Below are positions 45,541-60,635 of a stretch of DNA of 64,000 bases, piece after piece. The position numbers and the translations under genes are program-made. Positions within the stretch are counted from its first letter, which is position 1; every line of letters begins with the position of its first letter. Under the pieces are notes generated by a model. The model searched no databases. It was not told the origin of the DNA and worked only from the letters and a program-made list of their open reading frames with translations. Source of the DNA: Neisseria canis (lineage in GTDB: Bacteria; Pseudomonadota; Gammaproteobacteria; Burkholderiales; Neisseriaceae); contig NZ_LR134313.1 in NCBI RefSeq assembly GCF_900636765.1, forward strand, positions 1,364,001 through 1,428,000, read 5' to 3'.

Positions 45541-48189
45541 TCAACCGCTATTCAGTTCGTCTAACTTTTCCACCTCACGATATTCCAGATCCTGCACGCC
45601 AGCGAAATATTTTTCAGCATACTCGATTTTCAAACGTTCAGAGTAACGCAGTTGGTCTTTATCCACGCCCGCTTGTATACCTTTAGCTGTGCCTTTGGTT
45701 TCTGCAACGAAAAACGCTTGTTTCCCGGTTTCGGCAACTACCGCCCAGTCGGGATTGTAGTTGCCTAAAGGCGTGGGAATCTTGAACCATTTGGGCAGTT
45801 TGAAATAGAAAGGGATTTTGCCTAAGGTATCGTCGTCGTAGTTTTCGCAATCGCGGGCGAAATTTTGTTCGACGGCGGAATCGAGCGGGATATAGTTTTC
45901 GCTGATGGTTTTCTCTTGCCTGCCGACTTCAAACGTGTATCCGTTTTCATAAAACTCGGTACCGTTGGCTTCCATATCGCGCCATTTTTCCATAAGGCTT
46001 TGGCGGTAGCGTTCGTCTTCGCTGATGTCGTAGCGTATGCCTTTTACCATCAGGTTTTGCAGAGCAACGTTGATTTTGTCGGCGGCAAGGTCGATAAAAC
46101 GTTGCGGATTGCCCGGTAGGTCGGGCAGGCGGTCGGAGTGCACGAGGATTTCATACACGGTGCGCCGCGTCAGCCCCGTTTTTTTCTGAATGGCACCCAA
46201 TACGTCGGGAATTGCCCATTCCGCTTCCACAGTCAAGCTGCGGCCGGCGGTTTCTTCTGCCCAAACACCGTCGGTTTGCGATTGCCTGATTCGGGCTTTG
46301 TGCATTTGGATTTTCGGTTTTTGGATTTCAGGCATACGGCGCACGGTTTCGGCGGCGGATTCAATCAGTGCGGCCGTGTCGAAATTCACGCGGTAGCGCG
46401 GTTTGCGGCTGAGTTTCTGCCAAACGGCCTGAAACGCGGGGTCGAGCGTAAAATCTTTACGGTAGCGCACGGTTTTTTTACGGGCGGCGTTTTTGATATT
46501 GTCCGATGCAAACGTGATGCCGCATTCGTCTTGGTATTCCTGTTGCAGTGTGGCGGCAAAATGCTCGTAGCTTTCATTGGGAATAACCGTGAGTACGTTC
46601 ACTTTTTCATCGCGCACCCGCACGCCGCTTTGGTTGACAGCCAAACGCAGGCCGCGCCCGATTTCTTGGCGCTTTTTAATCGGCGAGTTGCTTTCGTTGA
46701 GTGTGCAGATTTGGAACACGTTCGGGTTATCCCAGCCTTCTTTCAGGGCGGAATGCGAAAAGATAAAGCGCAAGGGGCTGTCGAACGAAAGCAGCGTTTC
46801 TTTGTCGCGCATAATCAGATGGTAAGTGTCGTTGTCGGCCTGCGTTGTGCCGTTGGTGTTTTTCAGACGGCCTTGTTTGTCTTGTGAAAAATAGCCGTTG
46901 TGTACGCCTTCCGGGTTCTCTCCGCCCGAAAGTTTGGTGTAAATCTCTTCAAACCACAAAGCAAACTTGCCTGCTTCACCCGCCGCCGTGCGGTAGTTTT
47001 CCACCTTGTCGATAAAAAACAGCGACAGCACCTTGATGCCGTAGGCTTTCAGGCGTTTTTCCTTTTTCAGGTGTTCGGCAACGGTATGGTGAATCTGCAT
47101 TTTAATGATTTCGTCGCGCATCACCCCGCCGCTGCCGCGCTCGATTGTGCGGCCGTCTGAAAGATCGATTTCCTGAAGGTCGAATTTTATCTCGTTAATC
47201 CTAAATCCATCTCGGTAGGCTTCGTTACCGCCCGATATTTCAAACAAATCATCGCCGCTTTTTACGCTCACGGTTTTCTTTTTCGTTTGTTTTTTATCTT
47301 GGTAGTGAATTTCTAATTTTGCTTTTGGCTTCTTAGTATTCGGCGGGTAAAAAACTTCCAGTAACTTTATGTATGCACCGTTCACATCGTTTTGCGCCGT
47401 AACCGAAAACACTTCGATCTGCTTAACCAGCTTCAGGTTATAAGCCTGCACCGGGTTCAGGCTGTAAATCTTGTGGCGGCTTGCTTTGTGGGTGGCCGAA
47501 TAACGCAATGTAAACAGCGGGTTGAGCGATTCAATCGCTTTCAGACGGCCTTCCGTTTCCATATTCTGCGGTTCGTCGATAATCACAATCGGACGCGTTT
47601 GGCTGATTTGCGTAATGGGCGCATCGCCGCTTTCGTTGACCTGATTGATCACATTCAAGTCTTTTTCAAACGACTGGATATTGATGACCAAAATTTCAAT
47701 ATTGTCGTTAACGGCAAAAGAGCGCAACGCCGACAAACGGCTGCTGCTGTATTCTGCATAATTCATCACGGGCTTGTCGAACAGGTCGGCAAAGTGCGTG
47801 CGCGTGCTGCGCAGGGTTTGCAATACCCCCTCGCGGATGGCCACGCTCGGCACCACAATCACGAATTTTGTCCAGCCGTATTGCCGGTTAAGCTCGAAAA
47901 TCGTGCGCAGGTAAACATAGGTTTTGCCTGTGCCGGTTTCCATTTCCACCGAAAAGTTTAAGCCGTGTTCGCCGATGTCGGTTTCAGACAGGCCTTTTTC
48001 TGCCTGTATCGTATTCAGGTTGCGTCCTATACTTTCCCAATCCAAAGCCAACTCATTTGCCACAAAGCGGCCGGCCGAACCGCTTTGCAATTCAAAATCC
48101 TGTTTGCGGTTCGGCTCACCTTCAAACAGGCGCAAAACCGCATTGACCGCATCAAGCTGGTAATCCAGTTGTTCAAATTTCAGTTCCAT
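45541..48189 (-). CDS. Type III restriction endonuclease subunit (Res)
   Basis: 882 residues. DEAD-box helicase domain: METGTGKTYV (Walker A), VIIDEPQNME (Walker B, DEPQ), RYSATHK; helicase C-terminal part with LKEGWDNPNVFQICTLNESNS. C-terminal PD-(D/E)xK nuclease NYNPDWAVV...FFVAETKG. Cuts DNA as a complex with Mod. Its frame carries at least three AGGCCGTCTGAA-type DUS (46862-46873, 47151-47161 partial, 47540-47551), a foreign dialect in this window, and one local-type DUS near 47981. Separate start, 105 bp after mod. Confidence 0.93.
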   Translation of the reverse strand: MELKFEQLDYQLDAVNAVLRLFEGEPNRKQDFELQSGSAGRFVANELALDWESIGRNLNTIQAEKGLSETDIGEHGLNFSVEMETGTGKTYVYLRTIFELNRQYGWTKFVIVVPSVAIREGVLQTLRSTRTHFADLFDKPVMNYAEYSSSRLSALRSFAVNDNIEILVINIQSFEKDLNVINQVNESGDAPITQISQTRPIVIIDEPQNMETEGRLKAIESLNPLFTLRYSATHKASRHKIYSLNPVQAYNLKLVKQIEVFSVTAQNDVNGAYIKLLEVFYPPNTKKPKAKLEIHYQDKKQTKKKTVSVKSGDDLFEISGGNEAYRDGFRINEIKFDLQEIDLSDGRTIERGSGGVMRDEIIKMQIHHTVAEHLKKEKRLKAYGIKVLSLFFIDKVENYRTAAGEAGKFALWFEEIYTKLSGGENPEGVHNGYFSQDKQGRLKNTNGTTQADNDTYHLIMRDKETLLSFDSPLRFIFSHSALKEGWDNPNVFQICTLNESNSPIKKRQEIGRGLRLAVNQSGVRVRDEKVNVLTVIPNESYEHFAATLQQEYQDECGITFASDNIKNAARKKTVRYRKDFTLDPAFQAVWQKLSRKPRYRVNFDTAALIESAAETVRRMPEIQKPKIQMHKARIRQSQTDGVWAEETAGRSLTVEAEWAIPDVLGAIQKKTGLTRRTVYEILVHSDRLPDLPGNPQRFIDLAADKINVALQNLMVKGIRYDISEDERYRQSLMEKWRDMEANGTEFYENGYTFEVGRQEKTISENYIPLDSAVEQNFARDCENYDDDTLGKIPFYFKLPKWFKIPTPLGNYNPDWAVVAETGKQAFFVAETKGTAKGIQAGVDKDQLRYSERLKIEYAEKYFAGVQDLEYREVEKLDELNSG

Positions 48190-48231: not shown

Positions 48232-48298
48232 GTAGGTCGGATACTTGTATCCGACGATCTGATAGGCAGGTATTGTCGGATTCGAGAATCCGACCTAC
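48232..48298. repeat. REP-like palindromic element between mod and res
   Basis: Two stems (GTCGGATAC/GTATCCGAC at 48236-48255 and GTCGGATTC/GAATCCGAC at 48275-48294) and outer arms GTAGGTCGGAT / ATCCGACCTAC. 67 bp. Its end overlaps the stop codon of mod on the minus strand. Confidence 0.75.
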
Positions 48299-50235
48299 AC
48301 ACATTCAAAAATAATGCCCGCGTCGCGCATCTGCAAAACAGTATTGCTTTTTAGCGAGTCATTGCCGTCAAACAAACGGTCGAGTGCCACGACTTTGGCG
48401 GGATTTTCGGCAATCACAGCATCTATCAAATGCTCGTCGGCACAGGTAAGCAGCAGGGCGGTGCGTTTGCCCGTGTCTTCGTCTTCCACCCAATACACGC
48501 CGTCCGAAATATGCAACGGGCAGGTGAGTTTCAAACCCAAGCGCAGCATCAGTTCGTAAGCCATATTCAGTGGTTCGGCATGTTCGGCAACAGGATCGAT
48601 AAACATGGCCAGTTGCGCCTCGAGGCCGTCTGAACCGTTTTCAGACGGCCTCCACGGTTTGAAATGGCTTTCGGCCAGTTTGAATACCTTAAAGCCGGTA
48701 TCAACGGTTTTTTCGGGATGTTGTTCGCGGATTTGCCTGCCCGCACGGCGGATGCGTTCTTTGGCGATGTCGGCGATGGTGTCGAAACCGGCTTTGCGCG
48801 CTTCGGATTTTTCGTCGGTTTCTTCGGGCAGTTGCACGCAGATATAGCGGCGGTTGCCGCCGTCTTCGGCGTTAAGCTGCATTACGGCATGGGCGGTGGT
48901 GCCGGAGCCGGAGAAGAAGTCTAGGATTAGGTCGTTAGGGTTTGAGCCGATTTGGAACATTTGTTTTAATAACGTCGTCGGCTTCGGTGTGTCGAATGGT
49001 GCTTTTGAATTAAAAAGATTTTGTAATTCTTTGTTTGCTGCATCATTGTGCCCAACTTCTTCAAATGGCCACCATGTTGTAGGAACTCGGCCTTGTTGTA
49101 CTTCGTTTAAATATCGCTTTAATTGGGGTGCGCCCTGACCGTCTTTGCCAAAGAAAATACGATTTTCCTGTAGCCATATTTGCATAGTTGCTTTACTTGC
49201 CCGCCAAGAACTTCCTTGTGGAGGAAAATATTCAATACCAGTATTGGGATTTCTTATGGGATAGACAGCGGACTCTGAAAATGATTTAACCAGCAAATTA
49301 TCACTCCTCCACAAGCCCCTTCCGTCATTGTCATCATTTTTATAAGGCTTGTTTTGTGTTTCTGTTCTGGGTAACAAATTCCTTTCAAAACGGAGACTTT
49401 TTTGGTAAACCAAAATATAGTCATGAAGAGTTGAAAACCCTTTTGCATCATTTGTTGCAGCATATTTTTTCTGCCAAATTACATTCCCCAAAAAATTCTC
49501 CGCCCCAAACACTTCATCGCACAGCAGCTTCAATTGCGCTTGTTCGTTATCGTCAATCGAGATAAAAATCACACCGTCGTCGCGCAGCAGGGTTTTGGCC
49601 AGATGCAGGCGCGGCAGTATCATGGAGAGCCAGTTGCTGTGGTAATGGCCGCTTTCTTTGCTGTTTTTGCGCCAAGCGCCTTGGAATACGCCGTCGCGTT
49701 TCAGGTAGCCTTTGTCGTCTTTGTCGCCGACGCGGCGGGCGTATTCTTCTCGGGTTTCGCTGAATTTGTCTGGATAGATAAAGGAATCGCTGCCGGTGTT
49801 GTAAGGCGGGTCGATATAGATCATCTTCACGCTGCCGGCATAGGCTTTTTGCAGGATTTTTAGTGCTTCGAGGTTTTCGGCTTCGATAAATAGATTATTC
49901 GTGCCGTCGAAATCCACCGATTCGGCTTGGCAGGGAATCAGTGTGTTGGATGTGGGTGCTTGCAGCGTGCGGTAGGCTTCGCTTTTGCCTGCCCAGTTGA
50001 GCTGGTAGCGTTCGTTGTGATGGGCGAGGTTCTCTTCGCCGAGAATAAGTTTGAGTTTTTCCCAGTCGATTTGGTCTTCGCAAAAGGCTTCGGGAAAGAG
50101 GGATTTTAGTTTTAATATGTTGATTTTATTGTAATTTTCGTTTATAATTTGGTTGCTGGTTGCTGGTTGCTGGTTGCTGGTTGCTGGTTGCTGGTTGCTG
50201 GTTGCTGGTTGCCATAATATCGCTCTTTGAATCAA
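48295..50235 (-). CDS. Type III DNA methyltransferase (Mod), probably phase-variable
   Basis: 646 residues in the frame as read, starting at a weak TTG (50235). Motif IV DPPYNTGSD and motif I DFFSGSGTTAH make a beta-class adenine N6 methyltransferase; ETDEKSEARKAG also fits the family. Residues about 9-29 are three QPATSNQ repeats encoded by nine 7-bp DNA repeats (50151-50213). The likelier starts ATG 50251 and 50215 are one base out of this frame, so in this sequence Mod may be OFF; one repeat fewer or two more would put them in frame. It has an AGGCCGTCTGAA hairpin at 48623-48651. Confidence 0.93.
   Translation of the reverse strand: MIQRAILWQPATSNQQPATSNQQPATSNQIINENYNKINILKLKSLFPEAFCEDQIDWEKLKLILGEENLAHHNERYQLNWAGKSEAYRTLQAPTSNTLIPCQAESVDFDGTNNLFIEAENLEALKILQKAYAGSVKMIYIDPPYNTGSDSFIYPDKFSETREEYARRVGDKDDKGYLKRDGVFQGAWRKNSKESGHYHSNWLSMILPRLHLAKTLLRDDGVIFISIDDNEQAQLKLLCDEVFGAENFLGNVIWQKKYAATNDAKGFSTLHDYILVYQKSLRFERNLLPRTETQNKPYKNDDNDGRGLWRSDNLLVKSFSESAVYPIRNPNTGIEYFPPQGSSWRASKATMQIWLQENRIFFGKDGQGAPQLKRYLNEVQQGRVPTTWWPFEEVGHNDAANKELQNLFNSKAPFDTPKPTTLLKQMFQIGSNPNDLILDFFSGSGTTAHAVMQLNAEDGGNRRYICVQLPEETDEKSEARKAGFDTIADIAKERIRRAGRQIREQHPEKTVDTGFKVFKLAESHFKPWRPSENGSDGLEAQLAMFIDPVAEHAEPLNMAYELMLRLGLKLTCPLHISDGVYWVEDEDTGKRTALLLTCADEHLIDAVIAENPAKVVALDRLFDGNDSLKSNTVLQMRDAGIIFECV
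50151..50213 (-). repeat. Heptanucleotide tandem repeat, AGCAACC x 9
   Basis: On the minus strand: GGCAACC followed by eight AGCAACC units, right after an ATG. Unit size 7 shifts the frame at each gain or loss. Slippage at this tract would switch mod ON and OFF. Confidence 0.95.
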
Positions 50236-50271
50236 TAATGGGCGTAATCATATCAGTTTGTTGGTTTTTTT

Positions 50272-50312
50272 ATAATGCCTGTCTGAAACTTGTTTTTCAG
50301 ACAGGCATTATT
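50272..50312. terminator. DUS hairpin upstream of mod
   Basis: TAATGCCTGTCTGAAA and TTTTCAGACAGGCATTA (loop CTTGTT). Local dialect; marks the border of the restriction island on this side. Confidence 0.65.
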
Positions 50313-57812: not shown

Positions 57813-60635
57813 ATGAGTAACAGTACTGTAGAACAATTTGCAGCAGATCTGAAAAAACCGGTGGAAGAGCTGCTGAAACAACTGAAAAGTGCCGGTGTTG
57901 CCAAATCATCAGGCAGCGATGAAATTACTGCCGATGATAAAGCTTTATTGCTTGCTTATCTGAAGCAAAGCCATGATACGCAAAGCAGCACAATCAGTAT
58001 TGCCCGCAAAAAAACCGAACGCAGCACTATTGACGGTGTACAGGTAGAAACGCGCCGCCGCAGCCGCAAAGTTGTTGTGCCTTCGCCTGAAGAGTTGGTG
58101 GTTCAGGCCAAAGCCCAGCAGCAAAAAGCCGCGGAAGAGGCGGCAGCAGCCGAGCAGCAAGCCCGAGCGGAAGCGGAGGCCGAAGCAGAGGCGGAAGCAG
58201 AAGAAAAAGCCAAAGCAGAAGCAGAGGCTAAAAAACTTGCAGAAGAAGCCAAACAAAAGGCTGAAGAGCAGGTAAAAGCCGAAGCAGCAAAAGAGCAACA
58301 GGCCGCTCCGGTTGAGGAAGCGGCACAGAAATCCGAAAAACCGGCGAAAAAAGGAAAAGACAAAAAAAACGCCCCTCTGCCTAAGCCTGTAGAAGTAGTT
58401 AGTGCTGCGGAGCAGGCTGCGCGGGATGAAGAAGCCCGCCGTGCGGCTGCCCTGCGCGCGCATCAAGAGGCGCTTTTGCGTGAAAAACAAGAGCGTCAAG
58501 AGCGTCAGCAGCGCCGTGAAGAAGCGAAAAAGCAGGCTCAGGAAGAGGCGCGTGCCGCACAAAAAGCGCGTGCCGACGAGCAACGTTCTGCCAAACCGTC
58601 GGAGAAAAAGCCGTTGGCCGTTTCAGGCAGCACTTCGGCTAAGGCCAAAGACCGCGGAGCGGAAGATGTGAATCCGAGCAGCGGCAGCCGCAAGAAAGAA
58701 GACCGCCGCAACCGTGATGATGGTGACATGCAGTCACGCGGCGCGAAAGGCAAAGGCAAGGGCAAAGACCGCAATGCGGCGCACAGCAATGAAGAGCGCG
58801 TGCGCGGCGGCGGTAAAAAAGGCAAGAAACTCAAGCTTGAGCCGAACCAACACGCCTTTACCGCGCCTACCGAGCCGGTGGTGCATGAGGTTTTGGTGCC
58901 TGAAACCATTACCGTAGCCGATTTGGCGCACAAAATGGCTGTAAAAGGCGTGGAAGTGGTTAAAGCCCTGATGAAAATGGGTATGATGGTAACCATCAAC
59001 CAATCGCTTGACCAAGAAACCGCGCTGATTGTGGTAGAAGAAATGGGCCACATCGGCAAACCTGCCGCTGCGGATGATCCGGAAGCTTTCTTGGAAGAAG
59101 GTGCGGAGCTTGTTGAAGCCGAAAAATTACCGCGTCCGCCCGTGGTTACCGTGATGGGTCACGTCGACCACGGTAAAACCTCGCTGCTTGACTATATCCG
59201 CCGCGCCAAAGTGGTGCAGGGTGAGGCCGGCGGGATTACCCAACATATCGGTGCCTACCATGTGGAAACACCGCGCGGTGTGATTACTTTCTTGGATACT
59301 CCGGGTCACGAAGCGTTTACCGCAATGCGCGCGCGCGGTGCACAGGCAACCGACATTGTGATTCTGGTTGTGGCTGCCGACGACGGTGTGATGCCGCAAA
59401 CCATTGAGGCGATTGCCCATGCAAAAGCAGCGGGTGTGCCGATTGTGGTGGCCGTGAACAAAATCGATAAAGACACTGCGAACCCGGAGCGTATCCGTCA
59501 GGAATTGACCAACTATGAAGTTATTCCCGATTCTTGGGGCGGCACGACCCAATTTGTGGACGTATCTGCCAAACAAGGCATCAATATTGATGCGCTGTTG
59601 GAAGCGGTGTTGCTGGAAGCGGAAGTATTGGAGCTGCAAGCTCCGGTTGACGCTCCTGCCAAAGGTATTATTGTGGAGGCACGTTTGGACAAAGGCCGCG
59701 GTGCGGTAGCCACCTTGCTGGTACAAAGCGGTACTTTGAGAAAAGGCGATATGCTGTTGGCCGGTACGGCTTTCGGTAAAGTGCGCGCCATGATTGACGA
59801 GAACGGAAAGCCGATCGAAGAAGCAGGGCCTTCCATTCCGGTGGAAATTCTCGGTTTGTCGGACGTGCCGAATGCAGGCGAAGACGCGATGGTGCTTGCC
59901 GACGAGAAAAAAGCCCGCGAAATCGCACTGTTCCGCCAAGGCAAATACCGCGACGTGCGTTTGGCCAAACAGCAAGCCGCCAAGTTGGAAAATATGTTCA
60001 ACAACATGGGCGAAGGCCAGGCACAAAACCTTTCTGTGATTATCAAGGCCGACGTGCAAGGTTCTTACGAGGCGCTTACGGGCAGCTTGCAGAAACTTTC
60101 CACCGACGAGGTGAAAGTGAACGTATTGCACAGCGGTGTGGGCGGCATTACCGAAAGCGATGTGAACTTGGCGATTGCTTCCGGCGCATTTGTTATCGGA
60201 TTTAACGTGCGTGCCGATGCCTCTGCCCGCAAGTTGGCTGAAACCGAAGATGTGGAAATCCGTTACTACAACATCATTTATGATGCCATTGATGATGTCA
60301 AAGCGGCCATGAGCGGCATGTTGGCTCCGGAAGAGAAAGAACAGGTAACGGGCACGGTGGAAATCCGCCAGGTGATTTCGGTATCGAAAGTGGGCAATAT
60401 TGCCGGCTGTATGGTAACCGACGGCGTGGTAAAACGCGATTCGCATGTCCGCCTGATCCGCAACAATGTGGTTATCCATACCGGCGAGTTGGCATCTTTG
60501 AAACGCTTCAAAGACGATGTGAAAGAAGTGCGCATGGGCTTTGAATGCGGCTTGATGCTGAAAAACTATAATGACATCATGGAAGGCGACCAGCTGGAAG
60601 TGTTTGACATTGTAGAAGTGGCGCGCACTCTGTAA
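57813..60635 (+). CDS. infB: InfB, translation initiation factor IF-2
   Basis: 940 residues. IF2 N-terminal domain (first 55), a long Ala/Glu/Lys/Gln-rich linker (about 85-330), GTPase domain with GHVDHGKT (449-456), DTPGHEAF and NKIDKD, then C-terminal domains II-IV (C2 binds fMet-tRNA). Recruits initiator tRNA to the 30S subunit. 10 bp after nusA. Confidence 0.97.

Follow-up and report, generated by a model that had tools for sequence, protein, structure and literature searches.

The closest described relative of the gene analysed here is modD, found in Neisseria meningitidis and in commensals, with alleles modD1-7. In PMC7371114 its repeat is the pentanucleotide ACCGA; in PMC4751487, a gene is assigned to a modD allele when its identity to the type sequence of that allele exceeds 95%, and N. 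mucosa ATCC 25996 is the modD5 reference strain. Units can also alternate within one gene: PMC4751487 gives AGTC in modA11 and GCCAA or TCCAA in modB. Phasevarion genes have been found by their repeats, of 4-5 bp in modA, modB and modD, and such a search would miss a version built on a heptamer.

The window, by which we mean the whole 64,000-nucleotide stretch of Neisseria canis DNA that was analysed, carries what is very probably a modD-like type III methyltransferase gene in which slippage of a 7-bp repeat, located in the first codons, turns translation on and off. Its features are as follows.

45541-48189, minus strand: res, 882 amino acids, with ResIII helicase and RE_endonuc domains (profile match, motif check)
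48295-50150, minus strand: mod coding frame past the tract, with DPPYNTG and FSGSG motifs (Pfam, PADLOC, motif check)
50151-50213, minus strand: heptanucleotide tract, GGCAACC followed by eight AGCAACC, nine perfect units (sequence, Tandem Repeats Finder)
50213-50215, minus strand: ATG 50215, the most likely start, out of the mod frame at nine units (29 codons)
50223-50228, minus strand: AAAGAG, Shine-Dalgarno-like, 7 nt before ATG 50215 (predicted from the sequence)
50233-50235, minus strand: TTG 50235, the first ATG, GTG or TTG upstream in the mod frame at nine units (frame analysis)
50247-50255, minus strand: TGATATGAT, an extended -10-like promoter element that contains ATG 50251 (motif comparison)
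50272-50311: inverted pair of TGCCTGTCTGAA uptake sequences forming a 17-pair hairpin, shortly before the promoter-like element

Mod has the N6_N4_Mtase fold (Pfam PF01555, E 3.3e-41) with intact DPPY and FxGxG motifs, and its best PADLOC model is MTase_III (E 4.7e-207). The adjoining Res combines a helicase with a PD-(D/E)xK nuclease; its GTGKT, DEPQ and PD...ExK motifs are all present, and it matches the PADLOC model REase_III with an E of 5.2e-304. These are the components of a type III restriction-modification system, and Pfam, PADLOC and the intact res downstream all bear out the first assignment of the gene as a type III mod. The best-matching solved structures by sequence are a Mod (6k0w) and the EcoP15I Mod (4zcf). 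A single match to this Mod was found in the one-contig genome of 2.57 Mb. The mod-res cassette lies between two genes that we take, from a reading of their proteins, to be clpB and an aldo/keto reductase gene, and the same genes adjoin the res side of the cassette in the related genomes G053, G049 and G035. In G053, G050 and G015 (L141-L143), the 1500 nt to either side of the reductase gene showed no empty cassette site; clpB is absent from those flanks, and the window's clpB-side DNA did not align.

Tandem Repeats Finder places the tract at 50150-50212 with a period of 7, 9.0 copies, 100% matches and 0 indels. In register with ATG 50215 it runs from 50213 to 50151, the first G of unit 1 being the G of that ATG. 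The window contains 6 overlapping matches to three consecutive heptamers; 100 dinucleotide-preserving shuffles contain none. A repeat tract that controls the reading frame from the 5' coding end marks a phase-variable mod gene (phasevarion), and this gene has one. With nine units, ATG 50251 and ATG 50215, which share a frame, open 41 and 29 codons respectively, and TTG 50235, the sole open alternative to the ATGs, opens 646. When the frames are computed for 0-15 units, both ATGs open the full mod at 2, 5, 8, 11 and 14 units and TTG 50235 at 3, 6, 9, 12 and 15, while 0, 1, 4, 7, 10 and 13 units leave it open from none of the three. The preliminary description had reported nine 7-bp units on the minus strand at ATG 50215, two ATGs out of the mod frame that one unit fewer or two more would restore, and a mod frame reachable at nine units from the weak TTG 50235. 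The array is indeed perfect, the frame arithmetic agrees at every point, and the frame computation confirms the route from the TTG.

Matches to Mod were found in 44 of the 83 Neisseriaceae genomes searched, and 5' ends were read at 25 of the 30 loci returned, with L025-L028 and L030 left out. Four of the 25 carry the heptamer, 8 a CCGAA-type pentamer, 2 GCACA, 2 poly-G and 4 other repeats (AGCC, GCCAA, CCCAA); 5 are without a repeat. The heptamer loci have nine units in the window (L001, genome G000), 11 in G053 (L002), six in G049 (L003) and three in G038 (L013), so tract length is not constant between relatives. The presence of the heptamer at the start of mod in three further Neisseria genomes, together with the frame dependence, supports well the phase-variable reading first proposed. 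The heptamer was also considered as a family-wide repeat and rejected as such: three or more units occur anywhere in only 5 of the 83 family genomes, in 4 of those 5 at the start of mod. Among 369 genomes sampled from the class, two have four units, the window's own being one. At L011 (G009) and L012 (G017), which belong to close genomes, GCACA is present in 11 and 5 copies behind identical upstream sequence, both in frame; these are homologous sites with another unit, varying length and a shared start region.

Starts and promoters were compared at 20 loci. ATG 50215, preceded by AAAGAG, is the sole credible start of the window gene; its context is that of the ATGGCAACC start in the pentamer relatives L007, L009, L017 and L018. 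ATG 50251 had been put forward as a second start. Its frame is as claimed, but it is an unlikely start and was rejected as one: since it lies within the -10-like TGATATGAT, it is probably not transcribed, and it would then be absent from the mRNA and untranslated. The pattern TGNTAnnnT stands 35-46 nt ahead of the start at 4 of 4 heptamer loci and at 7 of the 20 overall, the others being one of the 8 pentamer loci (G035), L014 and L022. As background, 4.6% of the window's 75-nt stretches contain it, as do 5 of the 31 regions examined ahead of long ORFs; a generic promoter scan (4 sites found, 2.7 expected) did not flag the TGATATGAT motif. Measured from the assumed ATG, 6 of the 20 loci are ON and 14 OFF, with the choice of ATG uncertain at the poly-G loci L005 and L008 (at L008 translation from it stops after 4 codons). 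Of the heptamer loci, L003 is ON, and L001, L002 and L013 are OFF.

At the place of the window's inverted uptake sequences, the pair is of GGCCGTCTGAA type in G049 and G035 and degenerate in G053 and G038. The window holds 62 copies of TGCCTGTCTGAA, 31 per strand, versus 5 of the canonical GCCGTCTGAA core; this agrees with the wadDUS dialect of N. wadsworthii (PMC3630211). An imperfect tandem array with 18-bp and 6-bp periods and 73-74% matches lies elsewhere in the window, at 58166-58228.

We propose that transcription starts about 7 nt past TGATATGAT and that translation begins at ATG 50215. Addition or loss of a unit by slippage in the cell would shift the reading frame by one base, so that 8 or 11 units would yield full-length Mod (ON) and the nine units sequenced a peptide of 29 codons (OFF), with TTG 50235 perhaps supplying traces of Mod. 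In the ON state the sites of one motif would be methylated, and the expression of many genes could alter (a phasevarion). Type III Res needs Mod for DNA recognition, and the OFF state would for that reason silence methylation and restriction together. The frames at nine units also favour the earlier suggestion that the sequenced state is OFF or low-level.

Database proteins bear on which states occur in the lineage. The 211 collected, drawn from the best 120 of 7996 scored matches and 120 of 148, were judged from protein sequence alone, P0209, P0119, P0151, P0103 and P0108 among them. The heptad is present in 6 of those 211: P0001-P0003 (the window's protein and near-copies), P0007 from N. weaveri (G049's own protein), P0089 from N. 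dumasiana and P0209, a divergent Mod. Among the matches listed, the entries for this gene start at the TTG or at an internal codon, P0001-P0003 being in the TTG frame and P0004 and P0005 beginning internally; P0006 was grouped with G053, outside these five entries. No ON-phase protein of the window's lineage is present among the best 120 of 7996 matches (P0001-P0005). P0002, from an 84,080-bp contig, differs from the window's P0003 by the absence of exactly 7 residues, the length of three units; the lineage would thus have tract lengths of nine and six units, which are in the same phase, although the shorter version could be a short-read assembly collapse or one strain sequenced twice. P0072, a partial Mod labelled N. 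animaloris, is 97% identical (among the matches listed).

The same frames could be read as a three-level control of dosage, strong from ATG 50215 (8 or 11 units), weak from TTG 50235 (6, 9 or 12) and absent at 7 or 10, with the sequenced state low and not OFF. We think this unlikely. The three frames do have those three start-codon endowments, and both lengths attributed to the lineage, nine and six, fall in the TTG phase; TTG 50235, however, has no Shine-Dalgarno-like sequence that we could see ahead of it and would lie about 5 nt from the inferred transcript start, and in their present phase the heptamer loci of G053 and G038 (L002, L013) have no mod-frame start codon within 120 nt upstream. 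Starts in a second frame are common as gene calls (of the 155 NRTE-repeat, CCGAA-type proteins listed, the called start is in the ATGGCAACC-type frame for 72 and in another frame for 76, the remaining 7 being fragments), but called starts are biased, as gene callers choose any open start.

That the gene is off and decaying in this lineage, with the tract a relic, appears very unlikely: the lack of an ON-phase lineage protein among the matches listed and the 14 of 20 loci that are OFF from the assumed ATG would agree with decay, whereas the Mod and Res frames are intact with their tested motifs, Mod is 98-100% identical to that of G053 in each of four segments (Res, 92%), and the perfect nine-unit array suggests recent slippage. 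Least probable of all is a mobile or intergenic repeat that came to lie here by chance and has no switching role. AGCAACC does form arrays outside mod in G418 and stands in three copies upstream of a sulfatase-domain gene in G057, but it occupies the same mod position in four Neisseria genomes, although the genes around the cassette are wholly different in G000 and partly different in G053, G049 and G038, and relatives have other frame-shifting repeats there.

The gammaproteobacterial genome G418 has several AGCAACC arrays; the two examined, L147:1501-1549 and L155:1501-1549, have 7 copies each, and neither is at a mod gene, the first following the end of a gene and the second being close to gene starts. 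In G057, the fifth family genome with three units, these (L121:1126-1145) precede the called start of the sulfatase-domain gene by about 55 nt; its product may, we guess, be of the phosphoethanolamine-transferase type, and the gene could be a second one under the heptamer.

The recognition domain was taken as residues 236-385 of the 618-residue Mod core. That of the window is 100% identical to the domain of G053, 89% to those of L004 (CCGAA) and of N. weixii L005/P0058 (poly-G), 87% to P0049 (CCGAA) and 85% to P0103 and P0108 (GCACA, from protein). It is 88% identical to that of P0044 (CCGAA) from N. mucosa ATCC 25996, presumably the modD5 gene itself. One recognition domain, at 85-100% identity, is thus found with four slippage repeats: AGCAACC, CCGAA, poly-G and GCACA. 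Conversely, the domains of the other heptamer genes are only 45% (L003), 42% (P0209), 20% (L013) and 19% (P0089) identical to it, and that of P0112, a CCGAA-type Mod of N. meningitidis, 44%. Since the domain occurs with several repeats and the heptamer with several domains, repeat and specificity have been reshuffled independently of each other.

Outside the recognition domain, the window Mod and P0044 share 86% identity over residues 11-235, 84% over 386-500 and 56% over 501-618. In the N-terminal tree the window Mod groups with other species, and P0044 and the N. meningitidis protein lie together on a different branch. The tract consists of AGCAACC and not of the ACCGA of modD, of which CCGAA is a rotation, and the 88% identity in the recognition domain falls short of the more than 95% that defines modD5; as judged from sequence, the window Mod counts by that rule as a new allele near modD5, and it may share its target motif with modD5-like Mods. 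The locus had been put forward as a new mod type. This we reject on the segment identities and the trees: the protein falls among ACCGA-type Mods with a modD5-like recognition domain, and only the repeat unit is new, as far as the literature searched shows.

A single site can carry either repeat. The cassettes of G049, with six heptamers, and G035, with twelve ACCGA-type pentamers, have both flanks in common; identity between their DNA sequences is 95.6% at 120-600 nt upstream, 74.4% over the final 95 nt ahead of the ATG and 91.0% over 300 nt past the tract. Between the window and G049 identity is 95.3% past the tract, and the sequences 120-600 nt upstream are unrelated (50.1%). The G035 pentamer row lies within the heptamer group of the N-terminal tree (support 97/95), where 5 of the 6 neighbours of that group are pentamer rows, and it pairs with the heptamer row L013 in the C-terminal tree (100/99). 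The heptamer label, carried by 6 rows including P0209, which sits apart, requires three changes in either tree; well-supported branches force at least two changes for the N part, where the bootstrap has not settled and several forks are open, and at least three for the C part. The trees keep 42 of 45 rows, the near-duplicates L012, L043 and P0058 having been dropped; among the rows labelled 'none/other' are L044, L048 and L052, with unread 5' ends.

The heptamer is one of several repeats that the family has at this place; switching looks conserved and the unit replaced, and the heptamer may have been born there, from the start context (ATG)GCAACC common to the pentamer genes. Four repeats on one recognition domain, and a 7-mer and a 5-mer at one site, raise the question whether selection keeps stochastic switching itself and not a particular repeat. 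To us the odds are about even that selection acts on the switch as a function, with the repeat itself being replaceable. The site with both units also invites the question whether their switching rates differ.

In the literature searched, which was available in part and does not cover the REBASE survey (Atack 2018), no heptanucleotide mod tract or AGCAACC unit was found. N. weaveri (7) and N. wadsworthii (1) are among the genomes of PMC5953494, where the cut-off for units of 6-9 bp is 3. As the main survey of type III mod repeats may record a heptamer mod, we claim no priority; as far as the parts of the literature searched show, what is new is the repeat unit alone. Neisseria was already known to have heptamer tracts: pglE has CAAACAC, likewise a 7-bp slippage unit, although in a glycosylation gene and not in mod. 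The AACAACC of hmw1A, hmw2A and a TonB-type gene in H. influenzae is also a 7-bp unit, in adhesin and iron-uptake genes; the hmw heptamers are mostly in the promoter, unlike the coding tract of mod. Closest to the locus is modD, with which it shares a type III Mod with a 5' coding repeat and an exchangeable recognition domain, and perhaps the conserved ends; the pentamer relatives and the window mod have ATGGCAACC before and AAATTATA after the tract. It differs from modD in the 7-bp unit, against 5 bp, and in the last 118 residues, which are 56% identical to those of P0044. The mechanism, slippage of a repeat within the ORF, is that of modA (AGCC) and modB (CCCAA or GCCAA), but in its N-terminal part the window Mod shares only 44-46% identity with L024 and L029, the GCCAA and CCCAA rows. 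The alternative units of modA and modB keep the unit length, whereas here the unit length itself differs.
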